From: an uncultured Acidobacteriota bacterium
GTDB taxonomy: Bacteria > Acidobacteriota > UBA6911 > CAINFC01
Assembly: GCA_903847975.1 (NCBI GenBank)
Contig: CAINFC010000321.1
Coordinates: forward strand, 1 to 57,771
Reading direction: 5' to 3'
Length of the DNA: 57,771 bases
Numbering within the stretch: position 1 is the stretch's first letter; each line of letters begins with the position of its first letter. The translations under genes and the position numbers were made by a program. Below the pieces are notes generated by a model. That model was not told the DNA's origin. It saw nothing but the letters and a program-made list of their open reading frames with translations, and searched no databases. Shown here one piece after another: positions 39,012 to 51,999 of this stretch.

Positions 39012-40325
39012 ATGGCGGAAAAGGATATAAGCCGAAGTTCAATTCAATTACCCGTCCAGTTCAGACACCTTCCGGTACTCCGGGCTTTCGTCGAGCAATC
39101 CTCTACGGCTTACGATTTTCCGGCAGAGGACTCTACTCGTCTCGTTCTCGCGACGGAAGAGCTATTCGCTCATGTTTGTGCCCTGCCTTCCGAAGGAAAG
39201 GAAATGAAGGTAGTTGTACTGCCGCAACCACATCAGATCCGGCTCGGCTTTTTTTTCCACGGGGAGCAATTTGATCCCTGGTCTTTTAATATCGGCGCTC
39301 GAATTTCCGCCGACGACGATACTTCTCTGGAAGGACTTGGGTTGCTTCTGGCCGCCCGTTCTGTCGATAGCTTCACGATCCGTCCCCAGGAGCTGGGAAA
39401 TATCGAGGTCTGGATGACCAAAAAAAGGACCTATCCGCAAACGGCACCAGCCCCACGGGAGTCGAGAACTTTCACCGGCCCGCTCACTGTTGGTTCCGCT
39501 TCCCAGGAATCCATTCGCATGTTTGTGGGAAACCTCCAAGCCTTTTACCCGGAATCCGCCTTCCCCGCCTTCCTGAATTCCGCCGGCCGGCTGATCGATA
39601 TGCTGTCCGCCGGGGAATATGACCTTTGTCTGGCGCTCGACGACAGGGGGCAGGTCGCAGGCGGAATCCTATGGAATTTCCTCTCGGACCGTGCCGTAGA
39701 ATGCTGCGGTCCCTATCTTTTCGGTCCGGAGCTGGAGGCTTGCGCTCAGGATCTGATGGATGCGGTGATCAACCGGATTGCTAAAACCAGTGCAGTATGC
39801 CTGGTTTCCCGCTGGGCAACCCCGGACGTACCCCATGGTACGTTTGAGGTACTGGGAAAGATTCACTCCTTCACCCTTGCGGAGGGGATGGCCGAAGTGC
39901 CTGTCCTGGGCCGCTTTCTGAAAGAGGATGAAGGCCTGTATGTGTGGACAACACCCGAACTGGAAAAGTACTTGGGAGAGCAATATGGCCGCCTTTGCAT
40001 CGCCCGCCGTTTGCTGCCGGCCCGGGAAGAGGGGGAAAGAAGACGAAGGCATTCGGTCATCGCCGCTCACATCGATCAGCAGCACCAGTCCGCCTTGTTG
40101 ACGCTGGCGCTGGATGGAGAGGATTTGGAATCCAACATCCTTCAGCAGGTTGCTTCCCTGCTGCTGCATGGGGTTTGCGTGATTCATTTCGAACTGGATC
40201 TCGCCTCAGCCCAGAAAGCCCGATTAGCGCCTATCCTGATGAGAAACGGATTCGAACCTCGTCTGGTATTGCCTCATGCCGGGGCCGGAGATATTGTTTT
40301 GCTGGAAAAGGTCCTTCACCCATGA
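39012..40325 (+). CDS. RsbW-like ATPase domain fused to a GNAT-like acyltransferase domain
   Basis: A 437-residue cytoplasmic protein. Residues about 10-135 look like an anti-sigma/RsbW-type histidine-kinase-like ATPase (RAFVEQSSTAYDF, LATEELFAHVCAL, GLGLLLAARSVD). The N-box position usually held by Asn reads His (EELFAHV), and the G1 box is poor, so ATP binding may be altered. Residues about 150-437 form one or two GNAT-like folds, ending with LMRNGFEPRLVLPHAGAGDIVLLEKV, which is similar to the end of the 46364-47422 protein. It is the first gene of a seven-gene operon whose members overlap. Role unknown: regulator, acyltransferase, or both. The ribosome-binding site is weak (GGAA). Confidence 0.7.
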   Translation: MAEKDISRSSIQLPVQFRHLPVLRAFVEQSSTAYDFPAEDSTRLVLATEELFAHVCALPSEGKEMKVVVLPQPHQIRLGFFFHGEQFDPWSFNIGARISADDDTSLEGLGLLLAARSVDSFTIRPQELGNIEVWMTKKRTYPQTAPAPRESRTFTGPLTVGSASQESIRMFVGNLQAFYPESAFPAFLNSAGRLIDMLSAGEYDLCLALDDRGQVAGGILWNFLSDRAVECCGPYLFGPELEACAQDLMDAVINRIAKTSAVCLVSRWATPDVPHGTFEVLGKIHSFTLAEGMAEVPVLGRFLKEDEGLYVWTTPELEKYLGEQYGRLCIARRLLPAREEGERRRRHSVIAAHIDQQHQSALLTLALDGEDLESNILQQVASLLLHGVCVIHFELDLASAQKARLAPILMRNGFEPRLVLPHAGAGDIVLLEKVLHP

Positions 40326-41446
40326 TGCGGCCCAATACGCTCAACTTGGAATCTTTGGTGCCCCGCCATGTCCAGCGGTTCGAACCGTATATCCCCAGTC
40401 GGCCGGAGGAAGAGCTCCGAAAGCTCTATCGCTTTCAAAAGCTTTACCGCCTCAATAATAATGAAAACCCGCTGGGCCCCTCGCCCCAGGCACTGGAGGC
40501 CATTGCCGGCTTCCATCCTGCATCCGGATGCTACTATCCAAGCGGTGATTGCTTTTATCTGCGGCAGGGCCTAGCCGAACGTTTCCAGCTCAACCCCGAC
40601 CAGTTTATTGTCGGTAATGGGGCCAATGAGGTCATTGGCATGGTAATCCATGCTTTCTGTCAGGAAGGGGATAACATTGTAACCGCGGACAAGACCTTTG
40701 CGGTTTATGAATGGGTGGCTTCCTTTAGCGGCCTCGAAACCCAACTGGTACCCTTACAGGGTTTTTCTTACGATGATCCGGAACTGCTCCGGCGAATGAA
40801 TGGGAAAACCAAGATCGTCTTTCTCTGTAATCCGAATAATCCGACCGGAACCTATTGGGATCGATCCCGTTTATGCCGGTTTCTGGATGCGGTTGGGATA
40901 CAGCATCTGGTTGTCCTGGATGAGGCTTATGCGGAATACGTGCAATGTCCGGACTTTCCCGATGGAATCAGCCTGCTCCATGAATACCCCAATCTGATTG
41001 TTTTCCGGACCTTTTCCAAGATTTACGGCCTGGCCGGGTTTCGTATCGGATATCTGGCCGCCTCCGGCTCGCTGACCGACATGATCCGCCGTACGGCGGT
41101 GGTTTACTCCGTAAACGCTTTGGCCCAGGTCGCGGCCTTGGCGGCGCTTGGCGATAACGAGCATATCCAACGAACCCGAGAAGTGGTTCAAGAGGAAAAG
41201 AATTTCCTGGTTCCGGCCATCCGAAAAAAGGGAATTCCTATCCAGGCCGACCAGGGGTGCTTCGTGATGCTGCGCATGCCGATCAACGACACCCTGGTGT
41301 ACAGGAAAATGCTGCAGCGAGGGATTATGATTCGAAGCATGACCGGATTCCGGTTTCCCAACTGGATCCGAGTCAGCATCGGACAGCATGAAGCCATGGA
41401 GGCATTCCTGGCCGCCCTGAATGAGGTTCTCGACGATGCCCAATAA
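40322..41446 (+). CDS. HisC-like class I/II PLP aminotransferase
   Basis: A 374-residue fold-type I PLP enzyme of the histidinol-phosphate aminotransferase group. Visible motifs are LNNNENPLGPSP, FLCNPNNPTGTYW, VLDEAYAEY and the PLP lysine Lys233 in TFSKIYGLAGFRIGY; a C-terminal Arg in NWIRVSIG binds the substrate carboxylate or phosphate. The ATG at 40322 overlaps the preceding stop (ATGA). No histidine genes are nearby, so it probably serves the local pathway by aminating a keto intermediate. CobD-like or phenylalanine-type specificity cannot be excluded. Confidence 0.88.
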   Translation: MMRPNTLNLESLVPRHVQRFEPYIPSRPEEELRKLYRFQKLYRLNNNENPLGPSPQALEAIAGFHPASGCYYPSGDCFYLRQGLAERFQLNPDQFIVGNGANEVIGMVIHAFCQEGDNIVTADKTFAVYEWVASFSGLETQLVPLQGFSYDDPELLRRMNGKTKIVFLCNPNNPTGTYWDRSRLCRFLDAVGIQHLVVLDEAYAEYVQCPDFPDGISLLHEYPNLIVFRTFSKIYGLAGFRIGYLAASGSLTDMIRRTAVVYSVNALAQVAALAALGDNEHIQRTREVVQEEKNFLVPAIRKKGIPIQADQGCFVMLRMPINDTLVYRKMLQRGIMIRSMTGFRFPNWIRVSIGQHEAMEAFLAALNEVLDDAQ

Positions 41447-43763
41447 AGGATGTGAGCCTGTGCGGCTGGAATTGGGAGCTCGCATCCCGAGAGCCGATGG
41501 CCTTTCCAAAGTCACCGGGACCGAGCCTTATGCCGTCGATCTCTACCCTCCCAATCCCCTCTGGGCCGGGGCTAAGCGCGCCGGCATTCCCCACGGTCTC
41601 ATCCGGGGAATCGATAACGCCCGGGCCCGATCTCTTCCCGGCGTCATGCGAATTCTGACTTCCGCGGATGTCCCCGGCTCCAATCGCCATGGCATCATTC
41701 ATCAGGATATGCCCGTTTTGGCGGATGGCAAGGTGCGCCATGGCGGGGATGCCGTTGCCTTGGTGATTGCCGAGAGCCGGGCAGCTCTGCGGCAGGCTTT
41801 GGAAGCGATTATCGTACAAATCGATCCCCTGCCCATCGTCGCCGGGATTGACGATGCGCTCGATCCTCAATCCCCCAAAGTTCATGAAGAACGCCCGGAG
41901 GGGAACATTCTGGTGCATGCCAGGATAGAAAGGGGGAAAGTCGACCAGGCTTTCGAGTCGTGTGCCGCCGAAGTCAGCGAGGTCTTCGTCACACCGGTGC
42001 AGGCTCACCTTTTTCTGGAAACGGAAAACGGACTGGCCTTCCTGGCTGAGGATGGGACCCTGGAAATCATCGCCTCGACACAGGCGCCGTTTCGCGACCG
42101 TTTCGAGATTTCCCGCGCGCTTTCCATTCCCTTCGAAAAGATCCGGGTGAAAGCTCCCTATCTTGGCGGGGGATTCGGAGGAAAAGATGGAGCCACCGTG
42201 CAATGCCTGCTGGCACTGGCTGCCCTGGCCGTTCCTCTGCGGTGGATCAAAATGGTGTGGGAGCGGGAAGAGAGCATGCTGGCCGGCTATAAACGCCACG
42301 CCACCAGGCTCCATTATCGTGCCGGGGCCCTTGAGGACGGGACTTTATACGCCCTGGACTGCCGCTTATTTTACGATACCGGGGCTTACGCCCATTTGGG
42401 GGGCGAGGTTCTGGAACTGGGAATGGAACATGCGGCCGGCCCCTATCGCATCCCTCATGCCCGGGTGGAAGGCTGGTGTCTCTATACGAATAATCCGATC
42501 GCCGGAGCGATGCGAGCCTTTGGCGTTTGCCAGGTGGCTTTCGCCATCGAGCAGGTCATTGATTTGCTCGCCGAAAAGCTGCATATCGACCCCCTGGATT
42601 TTCGATTGCGAAACGCTCTACGTTCCGGAGATGAAAACCTCTCCTCCCTGCCGGCAGCGGATTCGACGGGAATGCAAGCCTGCCTGCGGCAGATTGCCGA
42701 TCACCCACTCTGGACCGGTAGGGAAAACTGGAAATCCTCCGCTTCGGCCCATACCCGAAGAGGGGTTGGGATCGCTTCCGTTTTTAATGCCATGGGCTAC
42801 GGCAAGAACGTGAGAGACTCGGCCATTGCCCGCATCGAGCTGATGACCAGCGGGGAATTCATGGTTACCAGCGCCGTTGCGGATATGGGCCAGGGAAACG
42901 CCAGCACCTACGCGCAGATTGCCGGATCGATTCTCCACCAGAATGAGGGACAGGTCCATGTAACTCAGCCGGACACCGCTCATGCCTATCCGTCCGGATC
43001 TTCCTCCGCGGGCCGCACGACTTACACGTTCGGGAATGCCCTGTTTCAGGCCGCCCATGAACTTCGGAACCGAATTCTGAACCGGGGCGGAATGATGCTT
43101 TTCACGGAGGATGACCGCCATCTGGAGCTTCGCCCCGGCTGCATCCGTCATGCGCCAAGCGGCCGGGAACTCCCCCTCTCCCGTCTTGCCTCGCTTATGC
43201 GGCCGGAGGAAAGAGTTTCCTTGGCTCACTTTGTGGCCCCCGTCGTCGAGCCCAAACCGGGAACCTATGAAGGATTGCGCATCGGGTTTCCCCATTTGCT
43301 TTATGCCTACGGAGCCCATTTAGCCGCCATCGAAGTGGATCTGCTCAGCGGAGCCATCTCCGTGCTCCATTATGTGGCCGTCACCGATGGCGGAACGGTT
43401 CTCAATCCCACTCTTTTCGAACAACAGATTGAAGGCGGGATTGCCCAGGGGATGGGTTTTGCGCTCCTGGAGGACCTTCTGATCCGGCAGGGGATCATTC
43501 TAAATCCGGACCTGAGCACGTATCTGATTCCAACTTCCCTGGATCTGCCCACCATGGAAACCTCCTGGGTAAACGGCTCCGACAACTCCGGCCCTCTGGG
43601 AATGAAGGGGGTGGGAGAGGTCGCCATGAACGGACCGCTGCCGGCCATAGCCAATGCCTTCGCGCATGCCACCGGCCGGCGAATTTTTCAGGGCCCTTTG
43701 CATGCCGAGCGGGTTTTCTGGACGCTGGCCGGATCCCAATGCGACCAGGAGGAAAAGCGATGA
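41436..43763 (+). CDS. Molybdenum hydroxylase large subunit (CoxL/XdhA family)
   Basis: A 775-residue catalytic subunit from the ATG at 41436. Cofactor-binding motif YLGGGFGGKDG is near residue 243, followed by GAMRAFGVCQ, SSSAGRTTY and the catalytic Glu in MKGVGEVAMNGPLPAIANA. There is no Tat signal, unlike the pao set, so it is cytoplasmic. It overlaps the aminotransferase by 11 bp and the [2Fe-2S] gene by 4 bp. Such enzymes hydroxylate N-heterocycles or oxidise aldehydes and purines with water as oxygen source. The cysteine/selenocysteine loop of carbon-monoxide dehydrogenase is not evident, so CO oxidation is unlikely. Confidence 0.9.
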   Translation: MPNKGCEPVRLELGARIPRADGLSKVTGTEPYAVDLYPPNPLWAGAKRAGIPHGLIRGIDNARARSLPGVMRILTSADVPGSNRHGIIHQDMPVLADGKVRHGGDAVALVIAESRAALRQALEAIIVQIDPLPIVAGIDDALDPQSPKVHEERPEGNILVHARIERGKVDQAFESCAAEVSEVFVTPVQAHLFLETENGLAFLAEDGTLEIIASTQAPFRDRFEISRALSIPFEKIRVKAPYLGGGFGGKDGATVQCLLALAALAVPLRWIKMVWEREESMLAGYKRHATRLHYRAGALEDGTLYALDCRLFYDTGAYAHLGGEVLELGMEHAAGPYRIPHARVEGWCLYTNNPIAGAMRAFGVCQVAFAIEQVIDLLAEKLHIDPLDFRLRNALRSGDENLSSLPAADSTGMQACLRQIADHPLWTGRENWKSSASAHTRRGVGIASVFNAMGYGKNVRDSAIARIELMTSGEFMVTSAVADMGQGNASTYAQIAGSILHQNEGQVHVTQPDTAHAYPSGSSSAGRTTYTFGNALFQAAHELRNRILNRGGMMLFTEDDRHLELRPGCIRHAPSGRELPLSRLASLMRPEERVSLAHFVAPVVEPKPGTYEGLRIGFPHLLYAYGAHLAAIEVDLLSGAISVLHYVAVTDGGTVLNPTLFEQQIEGGIAQGMGFALLEDLLIRQGIILNPDLSTYLIPTSLDLPTMETSWVNGSDNSGPLGMKGVGEVAMNGPLPAIANAFAHATGRRIFQGPLHAERVFWTLAGSQCDQEEKR

Positions 43764-44239
43764 CCGACTTTTGGCTCAATGGAGAAAAGATCGTTTGGGA
43801 AGGCGATCCCGCGATCCGGGTCATCGACCTCTTACGGGAAAAATTGGGACGGACGGGAACCAAGGAAGGGTGCGGCACCGGCGAGTGCGGTGCCTGCGCC
43901 ATCCACGTGAATGGGGAGCTGCACCTCTCCTGCCTGATGCTGGCGGGACAATTGCAGGGATGCCGGGTGACCACCATTGAGGGTATGGCCCCCGCGGGAG
44001 GCATCCATCCCCTGCAGCAGGCCTTCCTCGATTCGGGAGCCGTACAGTGCGGCTTTTGTATCCCCGGCATGGTTATGGCAGGTGCCGCTCTGCGGGCCAA
44101 GGTACCCGATCCCTCCGAACGCCAGATCCGGGAGGGGCTGAGCGGCAACCTCTGCCGCTGCACCGGGTACGGGAAAATAATCCAGGCGGTTCGTTCCCTG
44201 TCCCTTTCTGGATCTGCGGCTGAAGAAGGTAATCCGTGA
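43760..44239 (+). CDS. Molybdenum hydroxylase [2Fe-2S] small subunit (CoxS/XdhC-type)
   Basis: A 159-residue iron-sulfur subunit. The N-terminal plant-ferredoxin-like cluster uses CGTGECGACAIHVNG with a later Cys (HLSCLML); the C-terminal helical cluster uses QCGFCIPGM and GNLCRCTGY. All eight cysteines are present. It has no export signal. The start at 43760 overlaps the large-subunit stop (ATGA) with AGGAGG just upstream. It hands electrons from the molybdenum centre to the FAD subunit encoded next. Confidence 0.94.
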   Translation: MTDFWLNGEKIVWEGDPAIRVIDLLREKLGRTGTKEGCGTGECGACAIHVNGELHLSCLMLAGQLQGCRVTTIEGMAPAGGIHPLQQAFLDSGAVQCGFCIPGMVMAGAALRAKVPDPSERQIREGLSGNLCRCTGYGKIIQAVRSLSLSGSAAEEGNP

Positions 44240-44349
44240 TAAAGACGCCAGGAAGGATTTCCGCCGGAAAAGGCAGCACCCTTGCACATCGCCGCGACAT
44301 GGTGTGTTTTTGTCCGGCCGGCTCAGAAAGAACGTAGTATTTGACGCCC

Positions 44350-45183
44350 ATGATACAACTATTTTTTCCATTGTCCTTGCGGGAACTCTGGGAGATACGG
44401 TCCCGTTTTCCGCAAAGCCGCCTGTTCGCCGGGGGGACCGACCTTTTTGTCCAGCGGCGGTATCAGACCCAGGATGAGTCTCCCCTGATCGGCCTGGAAA
44501 GGATCCAGGAACTTCGAACGACGGCTTGGGAAGGGGATACCTTCACCGTCGGCGCCGCCACTCCTATCCGACAGCTGCTGGAGGATGATTCCGTGCAGAC
44601 CTTGCTGCCGGTACTGGCGCAAGGGCTGGCTTGTATGGGAGGACCGGCCCTGCGGAATATGGCTACGATCGGTGGAAACCTCTGTACCGCCTCCCCCGCG
44701 GGAGACAGCCTGCCTCCGCTTTACGTGCTGGGAGCCGATGTCGTCCTGCATTCGGAGTTTGGCCGGCGCAGCCTTCCCATCAAGGAGTTCATTCTCGGTC
44801 CCGGGAGCACCTCGCTGCGCTGCGGCGAAATCCTGCATTCCATTAAAATTTCCCGCCCGCCGCCCGGTTCCGTACAATGGTACCAGAAGGTCGGGCAACG
44901 GAAAGCGAATGCCATCGCCATCGTCTCCCTCGCTGTTCTGGGCCGTTCCGCCCCTGACGGGGGCTTCCAATCGATACGGCTCGCCTGGGGAAGCGTTGGC
45001 CCGACGGTAATCACTTCCCGGGAGGCGGAAGCCTGTCTTGAAAGTAGCCCTCTCACCATGGAAAAGGTAAATTCCGCCGCCCAAACAGCCCGTCAGGCGG
45101 TCGCGCCCATCGATGATATCCGTGCCTCTGCCGAATACCGGCGAATGCTCTCCGGCAATTTGGTCTACCGGCTGCTGCGATGA
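44350..45183 (+). CDS. Molybdenum hydroxylase FAD subunit (CoxM/XdhB-type)
   Basis: A 277-residue FAD-binding subunit. FAD contacts are LFAGGTDLFV near residue 28 and TIGGNLCTASPAGD near 106. The [4Fe-4S] insertion of PaoB is absent, so this set is of the xanthine dehydrogenase/CO dehydrogenase type. A TTG at 44341 is also in frame. A 110-bp gap separates it from the [2Fe-2S] gene, the only real gap in this otherwise overlapping operon. Its stop overlaps the transporter start (ATGA). Confidence 0.92.
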   Translation: MIQLFFPLSLRELWEIRSRFPQSRLFAGGTDLFVQRRYQTQDESPLIGLERIQELRTTAWEGDTFTVGAATPIRQLLEDDSVQTLLPVLAQGLACMGGPALRNMATIGGNLCTASPAGDSLPPLYVLGADVVLHSEFGRRSLPIKEFILGPGSTSLRCGEILHSIKISRPPPGSVQWYQKVGQRKANAIAIVSLAVLGRSAPDGGFQSIRLAWGSVGPTVITSREAEACLESSPLTMEKVNSAAQTARQAVAPIDDIRASAEYRRMLSGNLVYRLLR

Positions 45184-46367
45184 CTCCCAGTGAATCCGAG
45201 GAAAAACTCTGGAATATCGAATTTGCTGTGGTCGCCCTGATTTTGTTCTGTTGCGCATCCGGGCTGGCCATCTTTTTCGATTTTCATAAATACCTGGAAA
45301 GCCTGCAGGTACCTCCTTCCTGGATAGGTCCGTTAATCGGAGCCGATGGTCTGTCAGGCCTGGCCGCCTTGCTTTGGGCCACCCTGATGCTCCGGAAACG
45401 CCATATACAGCGGGCCATAACCGGAGGAGCCGTGATCTTCTGGCTATCCCTCTGGTCCTATCTTTGGGTTGACAAACCGCTCACGATCCTGCTGGTTCGC
45501 CTGCTGCACGGCTGTGGATTTGCGTTGCTGTTGGCTGCTCTTACTCTGCGATTGTCAAAGGCTATTCCTCGGCGGTGCAGTGGAACGGCTTTCGGTATCA
45601 TCGCCCTGGCGCGCCTCTTGCCATATGCCGTCATCCCTCCCCTTTTGAACTACCTTTCCCCGGGTTCTCTGAATTTCCGTTCCGTGGTTTTTTTTAGCGC
45701 TGTTTTCCTTACCCTTCTTTTCCCGATGATTTTCATTCTGGGCAGGCCCAAGGGGGAGGATTCCGGAACTGCGGTACCCCACCATTCCCCAAGGGATCTC
45801 TGGAGAAACCTCCGACAGAGGACAATCGCTTTCCTGCTGGCAGTTTGCCTGCTGATGCAGTGCAGCTATGTCATTGTCTTCTTCTACATCAACGTCTATG
45901 CCAGGAGGCTGAACCTGTCTAACCCCGGACTCTTTTTCGGCGTGGCCAGCCTCCTGATGATTCTCACACGACTGGCGGGCGCCGCTTTGGGGGACCGCTT
46001 CGAAAAAAGGAGGCTGGTCATCCAAGCCCATCTGCCGCTCCTGATCGCCTTCGGATGCCTGGCGGTCGGGCGGGGCGAACCGGCTTTCCTTTCGGCTGCT
46101 TTCCTGTTTGGGGTTGGGTGGGGAGTGGGCATGCCGCAGCTCAACGCTTTGCTTTTTGACCGTTCCCGTCCTGAATTTCGGGGTCCCAATCTAAACACCT
46201 CCATGATCGCGATTCAGGTCGGATTTTTCCTTGGCCCCTTGGGGGGCGGGGCCATTCTGGCTCGATTCGATTATGGCGTGCTGTTTCATGCCTGCGCCGT
46301 CCTTTCGCTTCTATCCATTTTTCTCCTGCTGGGTATCCCACGGGAATTGCAAAAGGAAAGAGAATGA
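45180..46367 (+). CDS. MFS transporter, probable exporter of the locus product
   Basis: A 395-residue membrane protein with about 12 hydrophobic helices. It has MFS features such as the cytoplasmic basic loop after helix 2 (MLRKRHIQRA), a long loop after helix 6 and GAALGDRFEKRRLV at the repeat of the signature between helices 8 and 9. Its start overlaps the FAD subunit stop, and its stop overlaps the next start, both by ATGA. Position in a biosynthetic operon suggests product export or precursor import; the direction is inference. Confidence 0.88.
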   Translation: MTPSESEEKLWNIEFAVVALILFCCASGLAIFFDFHKYLESLQVPPSWIGPLIGADGLSGLAALLWATLMLRKRHIQRAITGGAVIFWLSLWSYLWVDKPLTILLVRLLHGCGFALLLAALTLRLSKAIPRRCSGTAFGIIALARLLPYAVIPPLLNYLSPGSLNFRSVVFFSAVFLTLLFPMIFILGRPKGEDSGTAVPHHSPRDLWRNLRQRTIAFLLAVCLLMQCSYVIVFFYINVYARRLNLSNPGLFFGVASLLMILTRLAGAALGDRFEKRRLVIQAHLPLLIAFGCLAVGRGEPAFLSAAFLFGVGWGVGMPQLNALLFDRSRPEFRGPNLNTSMIAIQVGFFLGPLGGGAILARFDYGVLFHACAVLSLLSIFLLLGIPRELQKERE

Positions 46368-47422
46368 ACAAGCAAGAAGCTATTCAACGATTGATTCAGG
46401 AAGGTTACCGGATTGAGCCGGGCCAGGAATTCGAGATTGATCGGATGAAACCGGAAGATGCCTGGGGAGCTGTCCGCTGCTTTTATTCCGTTTATGGCGA
46501 CGAATATCCATTTGAGGTTAACTATGTTCCGGAGCTTCTAATGGAGGAAAACAGGCAAAAAAAGCTTCAAACCGTCGTAGCGCGGACCCCATCGGGGGAT
46601 ATTATTGCCTGCGGGGCTCTCTTTCTCAGTTCCGCCTATTCTCTCAAGGTTTATGAAGTGGGCCAGGTGGTAGTGGTGCCGGAGTATCGCAGCACGTTTG
46701 CCGCTTTGTGCATCCAGGATTACATCTACCGGGTTCTGGCTCCCGAGGAGGATATCCACACGATTTTTGGGGAGGCGGTCTGCAATCACCTTATCATTCA
46801 GAAAATGTCCCGGCTGGCGGATTTCAGGGAAAGCGGCCTTGAAGTCGGACTCATGCCCGCAGCGGCCTATCCCATGAAAGACTTCCCCGGGGAAAGGGTC
46901 TCAACTCTTCTGGGTTTCAAAGTAATTCAGGACCAGCCGCAAACGGTTTTCCTTCCCCGGCGCTATGCCGCCATTTTGAAGTCCCTGGTCGATGATATGG
47001 ATGTCCGCAGGGATTACCAGGTTTCCGAGGCAGGAATCCCTCCCGGTTCCCCGACGGTAATCCAGAAAAAACTGTTCGAATTCGCACAGGTCGCCCGATT
47101 CAACCTGTTTCGGGCCGGCGAAGATTTCCCTTTTCGGCTGGAAGCCGAGGAGCAGGAAGCGGACCAGGCCGGCTGCCAGGTGAAACAGGCATTCGTAAAT
47201 TTGGGGGAAGCCTGGTCCGGTTGCACGGTGGACTGCCTCAAAGATCACGGCTATTTCTTTGGAGGATTCCTTCCGCGCTGGTTCGAAACGGATGGTTTGC
47301 TCATGCAAAAACTCATCCGTGTGCCGGATTTTGCCTCCATTCAGCTGGAATCGGATCGTTCTCGCCGTATTCTCCAATTCATACGCCAGGATCTGGCGGA
47401 CCATCCAGCAGGCACGGGCTAG
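46364..47422 (+). CDS. GNAT-like acyltransferase protein
   Basis: A 352-residue cytoplasmic protein. Residues about 20-200 resemble a GNAT N-acetyltransferase (IDRMKPEDAWGAVRCFYSVYGDEYPFE, then VGQVVVVPEYRSTFAALCIQDYI as the acyl-CoA-binding region). The C-terminal part (CTVDCLKDHGYFFGGFLPRW) resembles the end of the RsbW-GNAT fusion that opens this operon, so the two share ancestry in that half. Last gene of the plus-strand operon, overlapping the transporter gene (ATGA). It could acylate the amino group introduced by the aminotransferase (inference). Confidence 0.72.
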   Translation: MNKQEAIQRLIQEGYRIEPGQEFEIDRMKPEDAWGAVRCFYSVYGDEYPFEVNYVPELLMEENRQKKLQTVVARTPSGDIIACGALFLSSAYSLKVYEVGQVVVVPEYRSTFAALCIQDYIYRVLAPEEDIHTIFGEAVCNHLIIQKMSRLADFRESGLEVGLMPAAAYPMKDFPGERVSTLLGFKVIQDQPQTVFLPRRYAAILKSLVDDMDVRRDYQVSEAGIPPGSPTVIQKKLFEFAQVARFNLFRAGEDFPFRLEAEEQEADQAGCQVKQAFVNLGEAWSGCTVDCLKDHGYFFGGFLPRWFETDGLLMQKLIRVPDFASIQLESDRSRRILQFIRQDLADHPAGTG

Positions 47423-47607: not shown

Positions 47608-47853
47608 TTAGGCGTTGATCACTTTGTGCAGGGTATCGACCAGGGCATTGGTGCATTTCACATTGGCCAGTTCGTTGATCGGAATCTTGACCTGAAGCTC
47701 TCGCATGGTGGCGGTGATAATCTGAACCAGATCGAGACTATTGATATCGTAATCGCTATAGTTTTTGTTCAGGTCCAGTTCCGCCGGATTCAGGTCGGGA
47801 ATCACATCCTTGAGGTTTTTAAGAACAACGGCCAGTACTTCTTCTCGGGTCAT
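47608..47853 (-). CDS. Acyl carrier protein of the beta-branching cassette (AcpK/donor-ACP-like)
   Basis: An 81-residue carrier protein. The phosphopantetheine serine is Ser39 in DYDINSLDLVQI, with Asn rather than Asp before it, as is common in donor ACPs of polyketide HCS cassettes. The C-terminal region (LQVKIPINELANVKCTNALVD) also resembles AcpK. AAGGAG lies 8 nt before the ATG. It overlaps the end of the ECH1 gene by 35 bp. It would carry malonyl, then acetyl, to the HMG-CoA-synthase-like enzyme. No phosphopantetheinyl transferase is in the window. Confidence 0.9.
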   Translation of the reverse strand: MTREEVLAVVLKNLKDVIPDLNPAELDLNKNYSDYDINSLDLVQIITATMRELQVKIPINELANVKCTNALVDTLHKVINA

Positions 47854-48628
47854 TGGTATCTCCTTCTTCAGTTAGTGGTGAATGGGAGGGAACAGAACCC
47901 GTGTTGGGCAACATTCCTTCCAGGTAAAAACTACGAAAATTCATTTTTACCTCATCCCGTGAAAGGATTGCGGAAGCGATTTCAGTTCCACGGCTGATCC
48001 CGTCGGCAACGGAAAGGGTCGCCGCGTCCGCCAGCCAGTGTTTCCACAGGGATATGGTATCCGATTTGGGCCGCGTCAGTTGACGCGACAGGTCTCTTAT
48101 CCGCTTCGGCAATTGCGGACCCGGGACGACGAAATCGGCAAGTCCGAGAGTTTTGGCTTCCACGGCATCGATGGTGTGACCACACAGACAAAGAGCCCGA
48201 AGCTTTTGGGGCAGCATGCGCTGCAACAGGATCGGTGTGATCATTGCGGGGATAATATCGAAGATCATTTCGGGAAGCCCGAATAGGGCGGAGTCGGAGG
48301 CCACAACGATATCGCAGGCCGCCGCCAGGCCCAAACCTCCGCCAATCGCTTCTCCGGTCACTTCCGCAAGGACCGGTTTGGGAAAGAAGTAGATCTTGCG
48401 CAGCAAAGCGGCAAAACCCTCGACGGCCGGCCGGACCGCGCCGGCCTGCATTTCATTCTCCAAGGTAAACAGGTTCGGATCCAGGCCACGACAAAAAACG
48501 TCTGTGGTGCCCTCCAAAAGGACGAGGCGCAGGGAGGCGTCATCTTCCACCTGGTGCAAGTTTCGCTGCACGGCAGCGATGGTTTCCGCATTCAGGCAAG
48601 CGGGCAGGGAGATCCGGAAAAGACTCAT
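47819..48628 (-). CDS. Enoyl-CoA hydratase-like ECH1 (PksH/CurE-type dehydratase)
   Basis: A 269-residue crotonase-fold protein. The oxyanion-hole regions are LEGTTDVFCRGLD and EVTGEAIGGGLGLAAACDIV. The VFCRGLD form of the first site matches ECH1 enzymes of beta-branching cassettes, which dehydrate the HMG-like intermediate to a 3-methylglutaconyl-like one. The C-terminal 25 or so residues are hydrophilic and run into the ACP gene, so they may be an overhang. Its start overlaps the ECH2 stop (ATGA). Confidence 0.82.
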   Translation of the reverse strand: MSLFRISLPACLNAETIAAVQRNLHQVEDDASLRLVLLEGTTDVFCRGLDPNLFTLENEMQAGAVRPAVEGFAALLRKIYFFPKPVLAEVTGEAIGGGLGLAAACDIVVASDSALFGLPEMIFDIIPAMITPILLQRMLPQKLRALCLCGHTIDAVEAKTLGLADFVVPGPQLPKRIRDLSRQLTRPKSDTISLWKHWLADAATLSVADGISRGTEIASAILSRDEVKMNFRSFYLEGMLPNTGSVPSHSPLTEEGDTNDPRRSTGRCS

Positions 48629-49383
48629 GGTGTGTCCTCATCCTCCGTTTGTAAATAATTCCGCTCAACCCAGTCCCTGGTGGACGGGCAGGCGAAGCAT
48701 ATCCGGTGCATCCGATCTTCCTGCTGCTGGGCTTCCGCCAGCAACTTTTTTTTCCGGGAAGCCAGTGCCCCCTTCAACAATTGCATTGCAATTTTTTCCT
48801 TTTCGACCATCTGCGTGGCCAGATTCCGGGCAAGCCCGACTACCTCCTGGCGAGCGACAATATAGTTAATGTTCGTCTGGCGCAGGGAAAGCTCGCTCCC
48901 CCGATACGTTCGGGCGGTGAACATCATTTCCGCGGCCAGGTAAGGCCCCACCAGGTCCGCCAGGAGAGCGGTACATCCCATCCCTGGAGTAAATCCCAGG
49001 GACAGGAAGGTAGCGCCGTATCGGCTTTCCTTTGCGGCAATCACAATGTCGCAGCAAAGAGCCAGCATGAGGCCTCCTCCCACAGCATGTCCCTCCATGG
49101 CCGCAATCACCGGACAGGGAAGGTTCAGGATCTGCTCGCTGAGGGTCAAGTCGCGTACCGCCACTTTCCCTTCGCAAAGATTCAGAAGGTTCCGGCGGCA
49201 GGCTCCGGCAGAGAATACTTCGGGCGTGCCCTGCAAAAGTAATACTTTAGGCTCCTTGACCCGGATGAGTTCCAGCTCGGCCTGGAGGCGGTTCAGAAAG
49301 GCCGGGTGAAACGTATTGCCATTCCGGGCATCAAGCATGGTCAAACTGGCAATCCCGTTCTCTTCGAAAATGGTTTGGATCAT
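48625..49383 (-). CDS. Enoyl-CoA hydratase-like ECH2 (PksI/CurF-type decarboxylase)
   Basis: A 252-residue crotonase-fold protein that closely matches the PksI pattern: GTPEVFSAGACRRNLLNL, then CEGKVAVRDL, PCPVIAAMEGHAVGGG, FTPGMGCTALL and TARTYRGSEL. In known cassettes ECH2 decarboxylates the 3-methylglutaconyl-ACP to the beta-methyl-branched enoyl product. AGGAA precedes the ATG at 49383, which is 20 bp past the HMG-synthase stop. Assignment of ECH2 versus ECH1 rests on motif recall, not an alignment. Confidence 0.88.
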   Translation of the reverse strand: MIQTIFEENGIASLTMLDARNGNTFHPAFLNRLQAELELIRVKEPKVLLLQGTPEVFSAGACRRNLLNLCEGKVAVRDLTLSEQILNLPCPVIAAMEGHAVGGGLMLALCCDIVIAAKESRYGATFLSLGFTPGMGCTALLADLVGPYLAAEMMFTARTYRGSELSLRQTNINYIVARQEVVGLARNLATQMVEKEKIAMQLLKGALASRKKKLLAEAQQQEDRMHRICFACPSTRDWVERNYLQTEDEDTP

Positions 49384-49403
49384 GGCGCCGAATTCCTATT
49401 GAT

Positions 49404-50636
49404 TTAGCACCATTCATATTCCCGACGATAGCCGGCAATCCGCTTCAGGATCAGCCGGTTCCTTCCCTGGTACATCGTCTCGAAGCAACCTTGGGGAACA
49501 TCCAGGGACGGGAGGTAATCCATGCTCTCAGTGGAATGATCCCGCTCATTCTCAATCTCTTCGTATTCTTCCACCGTAACGCGCCGTCTCGAAGAAAAAT
49601 GCCGCTCCAGATCCAGGGCAGCGATGACTTCGACGGCGCCAGGCAGCAGGATGCCGCTATAGAATTGGCCGATCGAGCCGGAACCATAAGAATAAAATCC
49701 GATTCGATTTCCGGATTGGAGGCGATCTCTTTCTTGGTGAATCAATCCGCAGAGACCGATTGCATTGCTGGCGCCGTAGGAGCCGCCCATCTGGGAAGCA
49801 AAGTGCAGGGAGGGCAGTACTTTCCGCTGAAAACTGGCCAGAATTTCTTTTTGTCCTCTTTTTTGGGCCAGGCTGAGCAACGTGCGGTGTGCCTGGTAAG
49901 CCATGCCGGCAAACGGCATGTGGTAAATCAGGTAATCGAAGTGGCTTTCGGGGTCGATCCCGGAACCCACCTTTTCTGCGTATTGACGATAGGCTCCCTC
50001 CAACGCTTCGAGATAGGCAAACAGACTCAGGGAGCTGTCCACGAGTTCCAGTCTTGCCGTCGGCCGAAAAAAGTCGTATTCCTGCCGTGAATAAATTCCG
50101 GTATGCAACCGTTCCCAGGCCATCACTTCAGGATGCCAGCTCAATAAGATCGCCGCGGCGCTGCAACCCGCCACCATTTCCTCGGGCTGCCGAAAATGCT
50201 TTCGGCTGAGGTCGGCGATAAGAACCAGGGCTTTCTGATCGAGGCGATTCCCGGCCTCCAACCAGTCCATCGCGATGTCCGTGGCGGCAACGCCGGCGTA
50301 GCAGGCAAATTTGATCTCAAAATTCCTGACATGGGGCGACAGCCCCAGGGCCCAGTGGGCCATTGCGGAGGCCGGCGCGGAAAAGTCTGCAGAACTTTCC
50401 GTAGCGAAAATCAGGAGACCGATCTGTTGTTTGTCTTCCGGGGTTAGAATCGCACTGGCCGCATTGACCGCCATGGTCAGGGTGTCTTCAAACGTCGGGA
50501 TCAGAGACCTGTTTTGGAGCCGGTATTCTCCGGTAAATAGGGGGCTGTCCCAGCCTCGGGCTTTGGCCAGCTCTTCCTGGGAAAGATAAAGAGGAGAAGC
50601 GTAAATGTTTATTTTCTCTATGCCGGCCTGATTCAT
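49404..50636 (-). CDS. HMG-CoA synthase-like beta-branching enzyme (PksG/CurD-type HCS)
   Basis: A 410-residue thiolase-fold enzyme. Start MNQAGIEKINIYAS and length agree with PksG. The catalytic triad is visible: Glu80 in FATESSADF, Cys112 in KFACYAGVA and His239 in YHMPFAG. It would condense acetyl-ACP onto a beta-keto-acyl thioester. The ATG at 50636 has GGAA upstream and lies 40 bp after the ketosynthase stop; an upstream in-frame start would overlap that gene and adds no homology. A mevalonate-pathway MvaS is a less likely reading because of the neighbouring ACP, KS and ECH pair. Confidence 0.93.
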   Translation of the reverse strand: MNQAGIEKINIYASPLYLSQEELAKARGWDSPLFTGEYRLQNRSLIPTFEDTLTMAVNAASAILTPEDKQQIGLLIFATESSADFSAPASAMAHWALGLSPHVRNFEIKFACYAGVAATDIAMDWLEAGNRLDQKALVLIADLSRKHFRQPEEMVAGCSAAAILLSWHPEVMAWERLHTGIYSRQEYDFFRPTARLELVDSSLSLFAYLEALEGAYRQYAEKVGSGIDPESHFDYLIYHMPFAGMAYQAHRTLLSLAQKRGQKEILASFQRKVLPSLHFASQMGGSYGASNAIGLCGLIHQERDRLQSGNRIGFYSYGSGSIGQFYSGILLPGAVEVIAALDLERHFSSRRRVTVEEYEEIENERDHSTESMDYLPSLDVPQGCFETMYQGRNRLILKRIAGYRREYEWC

Positions 50637-50676
50637 GATTTCCAAACGACCCGGGAAGTCCGTCCGTGGGGCGCGC

Positions 50677-51999
50677 TCAACGATCCCGTTGGGGCAGGTC
50701 GCCGGCGGAGTTGCGGTCGGAGGCGCGGGCAATAAGACTGGCGGTATTGAACCCCCCCATGCCGAAGGAGTTTTTTATCATGGTACGGATGGAGTGATCC
50801 ACCGGCTGATTGGCGCATACGTCCAGATCTACCTCGCGGTCCAGACGCTCGATGTTGATCGAGGGGTGCAGGCGACCGGCTTGCATTTGCAGAATGGCGG
50901 CCACGGTTTCGACGACGGCCGCCGCGAGATAGCAGTGTCCAAGAATGGATTTGGGAGCATTGATTTTAAGCCTGGAAGCATGCTCGCCGAATACTTTCTT
51001 GATCGCACGGATTTCGGCCAGATCCCCCTGTTGCGTGGAAGTGGCGTGAGCGGAAATGAAGTCCACTTCCTGAGGAGCGATTCCTGCATGGCGCAGGAGA
51101 CTTTCCATGACCCGCACCTCGTGCTCTTCGGAAGGACTGGGAGCTCGGGAAGCATTGGAATTGATCTCTACCTCCAGGATTTCGGCATAAATGCGGGCCC
51201 CGCGCGACAGAGCATGTTCCCGCTCCTCGAGCAGCAGGGCTCCGCCGCCCTGACAGAAAACGAAGCCTTCGCGATCCACATCGAAGGGTCGGCTGGCCCG
51301 GGTCGGCTGTTCGTTGAAGTGCTGGCAGGATAAGGCTCCGATCTGCACCAGGGAGTGCAGGGTCGCGGCGCACACATCATGCACGGGGCTCAGCACCAGA
51401 GCCAGCTTCATGTCGTGGTACCGAATCTCGTCCAGGGCGCTCCGCAGGGAGATATTGCCGGTGCCGCAGGTTCCGCCATTGAGGTAGACGGGGCCCTGGG
51501 CATTCAGGGTCTCGGATACGCTGCTGGCATGATCGGAATCCGCCCCCTTGAGGACCATGCCGGCATCCGCCAGGGCAGGGTCCCTGGCGAACTGGCTCAG
51601 ATTCCGCTCCATGTATTGCTCGTTTAAATCATAGCCGCCGATGATGACTGCGGTCTGCCTGGGATCCAGATCTGCCCGGAAGGCATCCGCATCCAGAAAA
51701 GCATCCACGGCAAGCAAATTGGAAAGTTGTACGGACCAGGCCGCGTTGCGCGTCAGACGATTCAGCCACCGATTTGTTTTTTCGGGGATCCGCTCCCGCA
51801 GTCGAGAGAGTTTTCCCTGCACATCGTATCCCGTCAGATCGCCCCCGATTTTGCAGGCAATGTTGGAGGTGTCGATTCCTTTCCAGGCGGTAATAGCGGA
51901 GTGGCCCAAAAGAAGGTTCCGGATAAACTCCTCCAGGGTATCGCCTAAAGGAGTGTTTACCGCCATCCCAGTGACTACGATCTTTTTTCTCTCCGGCAT
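50677..51999 (-). CDS. Ketosynthase of the beta-branching cassette (PksF/CurC position)
   Basis: A 440-residue FabF-like ketosynthase, first gene of the minus-strand operon. In beta-branching cassettes this enzyme decarboxylates malonyl-ACP to give acetyl-ACP. The nucleophile region reads GGTCGTGN with Cys178; the two histidines are His318 (ISAHATST) and His355 (KSILGHCYLAAA), with Lys350. Cassette ketosynthases described so far generally carry Ser in place of the Cys, so a complete Cys-His-His set is noteworthy: the enzyme may also condense. A promoter (52090-52118) and an inverted repeat (52041-52056) lie upstream. Confidence 0.9.
   Translation of the reverse strand: MPERKKIVVTGMAVNTPLGDTLEEFIRNLLLGHSAITAWKGIDTSNIACKIGGDLTGYDVQGKLSRLRERIPEKTNRWLNRLTRNAAWSVQLSNLLAVDAFLDADAFRADLDPRQTAVIIGGYDLNEQYMERNLSQFARDPALADAGMVLKGADSDHASSVSETLNAQGPVYLNGGTCGTGNISLRSALDEIRYHDMKLALVLSPVHDVCAATLHSLVQIGALSCQHFNEQPTRASRPFDVDREGFVFCQGGGALLLEEREHALSRGARIYAEILEVEINSNASRAPSPSEEHEVRVMESLLRHAGIAPQEVDFISAHATSTQQGDLAEIRAIKKVFGEHASRLKINAPKSILGHCYLAAAVVETVAAILQMQAGRLHPSINIERLDREVDLDVCANQPVDHSIRTMIKNSFGMGGFNTASLIARASDRNSAGDLPQRDR

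Follow-up and report, generated by a model that had tools for sequence, protein, structure and literature searches.

The contig CAINFC010000321.1 of an uncultured Acidobacteriota bacterium, analyzed here over its entire length of 57,771 nt (the window; C321 among the contigs of this genome), carries on its minus strand five adjacent genes for a ketosynthase (KS), a 3-hydroxy-3-methylglutaryl synthase (HMGS), two crotonase-family enzymes (ECH2 and ECH1) and a discrete acyl carrier protein (ACP). Together they make up the cassette for HMGS-type beta-branching, which is usually viewed as an accessory of modular polyketide synthase (PKS) assembly lines. We consider it reasonably probable (about 0.6), based on comparison of the sequences, that this cassette is a free-standing, type II beta-branching unit, and its chemistry would, we infer, run without a PKS. 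The placement of its proteins among homologs from PKS-free clusters, the retained condensing triad of its KS and a genome-wide search for a partner are the evidence on which this reading is built.

The cassette and its type II relatives

An earlier note on this DNA had described the five genes in the order KS, HMGS, ECH2, ECH1, ACP, separated by gaps of 40 and 20 nt and then overlapping, and it was right to the base; the overlaps measure 4 and 35 nt. Its further claim, that they form a complete beta-branching set, is borne out by protein families, structure matches and catalytic residues (Table 1), with the assignment of every protein resting on sequence comparison. The KS matched its Pfam models at E values of 1e-25 to 1e-31, and the PDB structures closest to the HMGS were CurD (5e-60) and PksG (3e-57). 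For ECH2, the NCBIfam model was passed and the top PDB matches were CurF and PksI, which identifies this crotonase as ECH2. For ECH1 the polyketide ECH1 model PRK07112 came second and below cut-off, with PksH (3hp0) among many crotonase structures, and the ACP matched PRK07117 (E 1e-12, below cut-off) and, among others, CurB. The residues of PksH and PksI whose equivalents are kept in ECH1 and ECH2 have catalytic roles known from mutagenesis (PMC7501309), and the invariant residues of HMGS are likewise present. All five open reading frames (ORFs) are intact; that of the HMGS has an alternative TTG start at 50732, upstream of the annotated one, and a promoter scan gave nothing above chance. The occurrence of five co-directional, interlocking homologs of one known set, all of the kinds that make up PKS-associated HMGS cassettes, is far beyond chance.

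Table 1. The five cassette genes, with positions in the window and the basis of each assignment
Product	Position	Strand	Basis
KS, beta-ketoacyl-ACP synthase	50677..51999	-	PF00109/PF02801; full Cys-His-His condensing triad; alignment and tree
HMGS (HCS/HMGS), beta-branching kind	49404..50636	-	CurD/PksG PDB matches; invariant Glu, Cys, His; tree
ECH2, crotonase-family decarboxylase	48625..49383	-	PRK07110 above cut-off; CurF/PksI; PksI His230 equivalent
ECH1, crotonase-family dehydratase	47819..48628	-	PF00378; PksH Asp68 and Glu137 equivalents; type II scores above modular scores
Discrete ACP, phosphopantetheine Ser in INSLDL	47608..47853	-	PF00550, PRK07117; SLD[IL] and MREL motifs

In an IQ-TREE phylogeny of KSs, 16 from type II clusters formed one group (100/99) and eight from modular-PKS cassettes another (99/97), with the window KS inside the former. 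The modular set was small and plasmid-derived, consisting of cassettes that lie alongside modular PKS or nonribosomal peptide synthetase (NRPS) genes in Enterobacter ludwigii, Methylosinus, Sandaracinus, pTML1, Eleftheria, Ensifer and two Streptomyces. The HMGS tree agreed, with the type II sequences in one group (98/95) and the window HMGS within it, in a set of 15 at 100/100. For each of the five proteins the best type II relative also gave a higher score than the best modular one (439 versus 187 bits for the KS, 414 versus 244 for HMGS, 287 versus 152 for ECH2, 129 versus 89 for ECH1 and 75 versus 45 for the ACP). In addition, the window ACP has in common with the type II ACPs the motifs SLD[IL] and MREL; modular donor ACPs instead have S[VI]DR or a similar sequence.

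In described systems the KS is a non-elongating KS0 that converts malonyl- to acetyl-ACP (PMC12560621), and NaPDoS2 also lists a decarboxylating KS class (PMC9582728). The window KS is not of the kind that has lost the catalytic Cys: it keeps the full Cys-His-His triad, as do 16/16 of the type II KSs, whereas Ser or Met occupies the Cys position in 8/8 of the modular-cassette KSs, counts that are not independent, owing to shared descent. Due to this difference the window KS probably condenses, supplying the beta-ketoacyl-ACP that the other enzymes would branch, and the proposal that the cassette is a donor set for a distant synthase, one of two offered in the earlier note, fits less well.

Within the phylum, clear orthologs of the HMGS were found in 3 of 396 sampled genomes (46, 38 and 37% identity), each in a compact type II cluster with no modular PKS in its surroundings. 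Most of the phylum matches of 29-33% identity were taken by their score to be of mevalonate type and left aside, and the few placed in the tree fell outside the type II clade, among them L027, a locus on a long branch that is either misaligned or fragmentary. An HMGS alignment searched against 84,980 species genomes produced 59 loci, to which the Serratia fonticola plasmid pSF001 was added, and 25 distinct loci from this collection form a single HMGS clade. Its sources are Aminicenantes, Spirochaetes, Acidobacteria, FCPU426, Firestonebacteria, Bacteroidetes, Nitrospinae, Yersinia pekkanenii, Edaphovirga cremea and the Serratia plasmid. The better-covered loci have a recurring order, i.e., KS, a FabG-like short-chain dehydrogenase/reductase (SDR), HMGS, ECH1, ECH2, a second SDR, ACP, an alpha-oxoamine synthase and a FabZ-like enzyme (or the FabZ-like enzyme first). 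The oxoamine synthase is often present, and a FabF-like second KS or an acyltransferase (AT) in some. Family searches assigned the FabZ-like proteins to the FabA/FabZ fold, the first SDR to FabG-like enzymes and the oxoamine synthase to the BioF/serine-palmitoyltransferase-like enzymes, with FabL the best model, below cut-off, for the second SDR. In all members checked this SDR has a Y-x6-K motif, the spacing typical of FabI/FabL-type enoyl reductases.

No modular PKS was seen in loci L058-L080 (3.7-21 kb each), since their sole ORF of at least 950 aa, at the edge of L076, begins like a protein kinase. Many loci are contigs of metagenome-assembled genomes (MAGs) and several end inside the cluster, so that the absence of a gene is at some loci not evidence; L071, L075, L081 and L065 carry parts of the cluster only. 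The survey of KS and HMGS neighborhoods proposed in the earlier note thus shows the relatives to lie in compact clusters of type II enzymes from which modular PKSs are absent. These relatives, together with the lack of a fitting acceptor described below, favor its free-standing reading, although such use appears, from the gene content of the clusters, to be the rule across the whole lineage and not peculiar to the window.

Several loci have features of their own. Seven (L052, L059, L060, L062, L064, L066 and L067), from uncultured Aminicenantes, Spirochaetes and others, combine a BioF/serine-palmitoyltransferase-like oxoamine synthase with a discrete ACP and the beta-branching enzymes, apparently an undescribed type of cluster whose product would be a branched alpha-aminoketone. 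The Enterobacterales clusters had no oxoamine synthase within their flanks, and those of Edaphovirga (L079:13535-14017, PF13924) and Yersinia pekkanenii (L080:13595-14035) include a lipocalin-like gene, and on this basis their end product probably differs. Fatty acid desaturase and hydroxylase genes lie in or beside clusters of a Bacteroidetes MAG (L072:12022-13752) and an Acidobacteria MAG (L076:11659-12540), hinting at lipid products. A partial cluster on a contig titled Lokiarchaeota (L073, JAFGBX010000424.1) is probably misbinned, since its HMGS groups with those of Spirochaetes. The open PMC literature, to which the search was confined, held no description of type II or oxoamine-linked beta-branching clusters, a silence that is weak evidence of novelty.

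A proposed route and its product

The route we envisage begins with the only AT of the genome, a single PF00698 match on contig C311 near FabF that we take to be FabD, which would load malonate onto the cassette ACP. The cassette KS would then form a beta-ketoacyl-ACP, in the simplest case acetoacetyl-ACP, and may also yield acetyl-ACP through decarboxylation. HMGS would add acetyl at the beta-keto carbon, ECH1 would dehydrate and ECH2 decarboxylate the adduct, giving a beta-methyl enoyl-ACP (3-methylcrotonyl-ACP from an acetyl primer), with all branching steps on the one discrete ACP. In the relatives, the cluster-encoded FabL-like reductase and often the alpha-oxoamine synthase would carry the product onward. 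Since both are missing from the window operon, the product would there pass to the housekeeping fatty acid enzymes as its likeliest takers. That it serves as a de novo iso-branched acyl primer is a possibility that we put forward tentatively.

A number of observations weigh against the reading of the cassette as a free-standing unit. The full clusters include SDRs, a FabZ-like enzyme, an AT and an oxoamine synthase that the window operon lacks, and the absence of the FabG-, FabZ- and FabL-like genes makes it a reduced member of the lineage. The genome also holds no close ortholog of the relatives' oxoamine synthase (best match 36%) or second SDR (best match 26%), identities no higher than those expected of BioF/Kbl and SDR enzymes in general. 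With these partners missing from the operon and no close orthologs of the two in the genome, the full relatives may not predict the product of the window cassette. In addition, the window HMGS sits on a long branch in its tree, and a Cys-bearing KS could still work mainly as a decarboxylase.

A more ambitious proposal, and a doubtful one, is that the lineage as a whole represents an undescribed, widespread type II system akin to fatty acid synthesis. Branching cycles of HMGS, ECH1 and ECH2 would in that case alternate with reducing cycles of the FabG-, FabZ- and FabL-like enzymes, building methyl-branched, even isoprenoid-like, chains without isoprene units, in many cases with an amino acid condensed on as the last step, and the window organism would keep the branching half, joined to its own fatty acid synthesis. 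It is unlikely, by our estimate, that the cassette instead branches long fatty acyl chains in their middle, acting on beta-ketoacyl-ACPs from fatty acid synthesis, or from its own KS with long primers, so that methyls come to lie on odd carbons. The pairing of the set in relatives with FabG-, FabZ-, FabL- and FabF-like genes and a serine-palmitoyltransferase-like oxoamine synthase would suit such a role, as would the desaturase or hydroxylase genes of some clusters, but acyl chain length is not readable from sequence and lipid-modifying genes are absent beside the window cassette.

Candidate partners in the genome and the surroundings of the cassette

The genome (8.13 Mb in 326 contigs, 99% complete) was covered by profile and protein searches, on which all genome-wide statements here rest. 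PF00109 matched five times, twice on C198 (a pair) and once each on C311 (FabF), C232 and C321 (the window KS). The match on C232 belongs to the only PKS module of the genome, part of an NRPS-PKS of 3781 aa (C232:14956-26301; L016, L017) with the domain order C-A-T-C-A-T-KS-DH-KR-T-TE. It has no AT and a RhiE-like linker, making it trans-AT-like, and given the single AT of the genome it would need loading by FabD. The statement in the earlier note that no PKS accompanies the cassette therefore holds for its vicinity and for most of the genome, with this one AT-less module as the exception. An ABC transporter and an ABC-type substrate-binding protein are encoded next to the NRPS-PKS.

Could the cassette act in trans on this NRPS-PKS, as an ordinary trans-AT system with separated genes? 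Its standing as the only module, AT-less and with a RhiE-like linker, would allow it, and the 49-kb contig holds no beta-branching cassette of its own. Branching acceptor ACPs are often tandem. Most are flagged by a Trp, a strong although not absolute predictor (PMC10006238). The final carrier domain of the C232 protein (LGGDSIAAIDLLERF) is single and unflagged, and the same module carries both DH and KR, on which basis it is judged an unlikely acceptor. The search for PKS modules with Trp-flagged acceptors that the earlier note had called for thus turned up this module alone; no modular PKS lies in the window, and no acceptor that fits the cassette well was found in the genome. Against a trans-acting role there are also the Cys-His-His triad of the window KS, unlike all eight modular-cassette KSs, and the membership of all five cassette genes in a PKS-free lineage, and we regard such a role as rather improbable.

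The KS pair on C198 (L019:4604-10882) is accompanied by an ACP and a thioester-reductase-like gene, beside glycosyltransferases, and is possibly a small type II system of its own. It was rejected as a partner, since in one of its KSs (KSa) the first catalytic His is missing, its ACP resembles that of fatty acid synthesis and there is no link to the cassette.

Unrelated genes bound the cassette on both sides, so that it is not truncated by the contig end. Those to its right encode a Ser/Thr kinase and an Oar-like TonB receptor, and those to its left form a GNAT-like/MFS/xanthine-dehydrogenase-type operon. The left-hand operon (39012-47422, plus strand) encodes, besides a xanthine-dehydrogenase-type trio, an MFS transporter and a HisC-like aminotransferase, two GNAT-like proteins, of which one contains an RsbW-like ATPase domain; it is rare in the phylum and has a GC content at third codon positions (GC3) as low as that of the cassette. 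It was rejected as a part of the cluster, because its GNAT-like protein is rare, with few and weak phylum matches, none of them in a genome that has a cassette ortholog, and the two units are convergent.

The GC3 of the cassette is lower than that of flanking genes such as the Oar-like receptor, which suggests acquisition from elsewhere and, along with the five or so genes missing relative to full clusters and the sporadic occurrence in the phylum, would fit a once larger type II cluster of which the cassette is all that is left, its partners lost and without a present role. The intact, interlocked ORFs with their catalytic residues argue otherwise, as does another reduced set in a Spirochaetes MAG (L071; SDR-HMGS-ECH1-ECH2-ACP, no KS), and we think a relic of this kind has a small chance of being correct. 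A role in mevalonate or leucine metabolism, an alternative raised in the earlier note, would make the HMGS a standard HMG-CoA synthase and the crotonases enoyl-CoA hydratases of degradation. It is highly improbable, although the HMGS and crotonase folds occur in those pathways too: no PF00368 match to HMG-CoA reductase was found in the genome (control genomes matched), which takes the HMGS out of a mevalonate pathway, the window HMGS stands apart from mevalonate and myxobacterial HMGSs in the tree and matches CurD/PksG as ECH2 matches CurF/PksI, ECH2 passes a polyketide model, and the operon includes a KS and an ACP.

Known systems for comparison

The cassettes of modular PKSs, e.g., those of bacillaene (AcpK-PksFGHI), curacin (CurB-F) and bongkrekic acid (BonF-I), are like that of the window in their five kinds of protein, the catalytic residues of HMGS, ECH1 and ECH2 and the discrete ACP. 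The window set differs in having no fitting acceptor PKS, a KS that keeps its Cys, KS and HMGS in separate clades and another ACP motif. An established parallel in chemistry is the Aib route of Myxococcus (MvaS, LiuC, AibAB, AibC), which makes isovaleryl-CoA from acetyl-CoA (PMC9131029) and reaches a 3-methylcrotonyl thioester by HMG formation, dehydration and decarboxylation without a PKS. By analogy, the proposed 3-methylcrotonyl-ACP would be the ACP counterpart of its intermediate, but the Aib route is CoA-bound, decarboxylates with AibA/AibB where the window has ECH2, and uses neither KS nor ACP. The lone myxobacterial HMGSs recovered (L082-L089, from Corallococcus, Archangium and Pyxidicoccus), near which no other cassette gene was recognized, form a clade separate from the window HMGS and are perhaps the MvaS of this route. 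The 3-methylglutaryl supply of caprazamycin (Cpz5; PMC9636800), compared by description only, also has an HMG synthase in a gene cluster outside the PKS line; its product is CoA-bound and there is no ECH2-type decarboxylation. Type II fatty acid synthesis (FabF, FabG, FabZ, FabL/FabI, AcpP) resembles the lineage in its discrete enzymes and ACP, its condensing KS and, in the full relatives, FabG-, FabZ- and FabL-like genes, to which the lineage adds HMGS, ECH1 and ECH2; the window operon keeps only the KS and ACP of the fatty-acid-type genes.

If the cassette is indeed a free-standing type II unit, a lineage that combines the set with a KS able to condense and with partners of the fatty acid type would give beta-branching a second setting, spread over uncultured phyla and culturable Enterobacterales. 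Branched lipids or aminoketones might be obtained from it, and its one-ACP design would offer a simple system in which to study and engineer beta-methyl branching.

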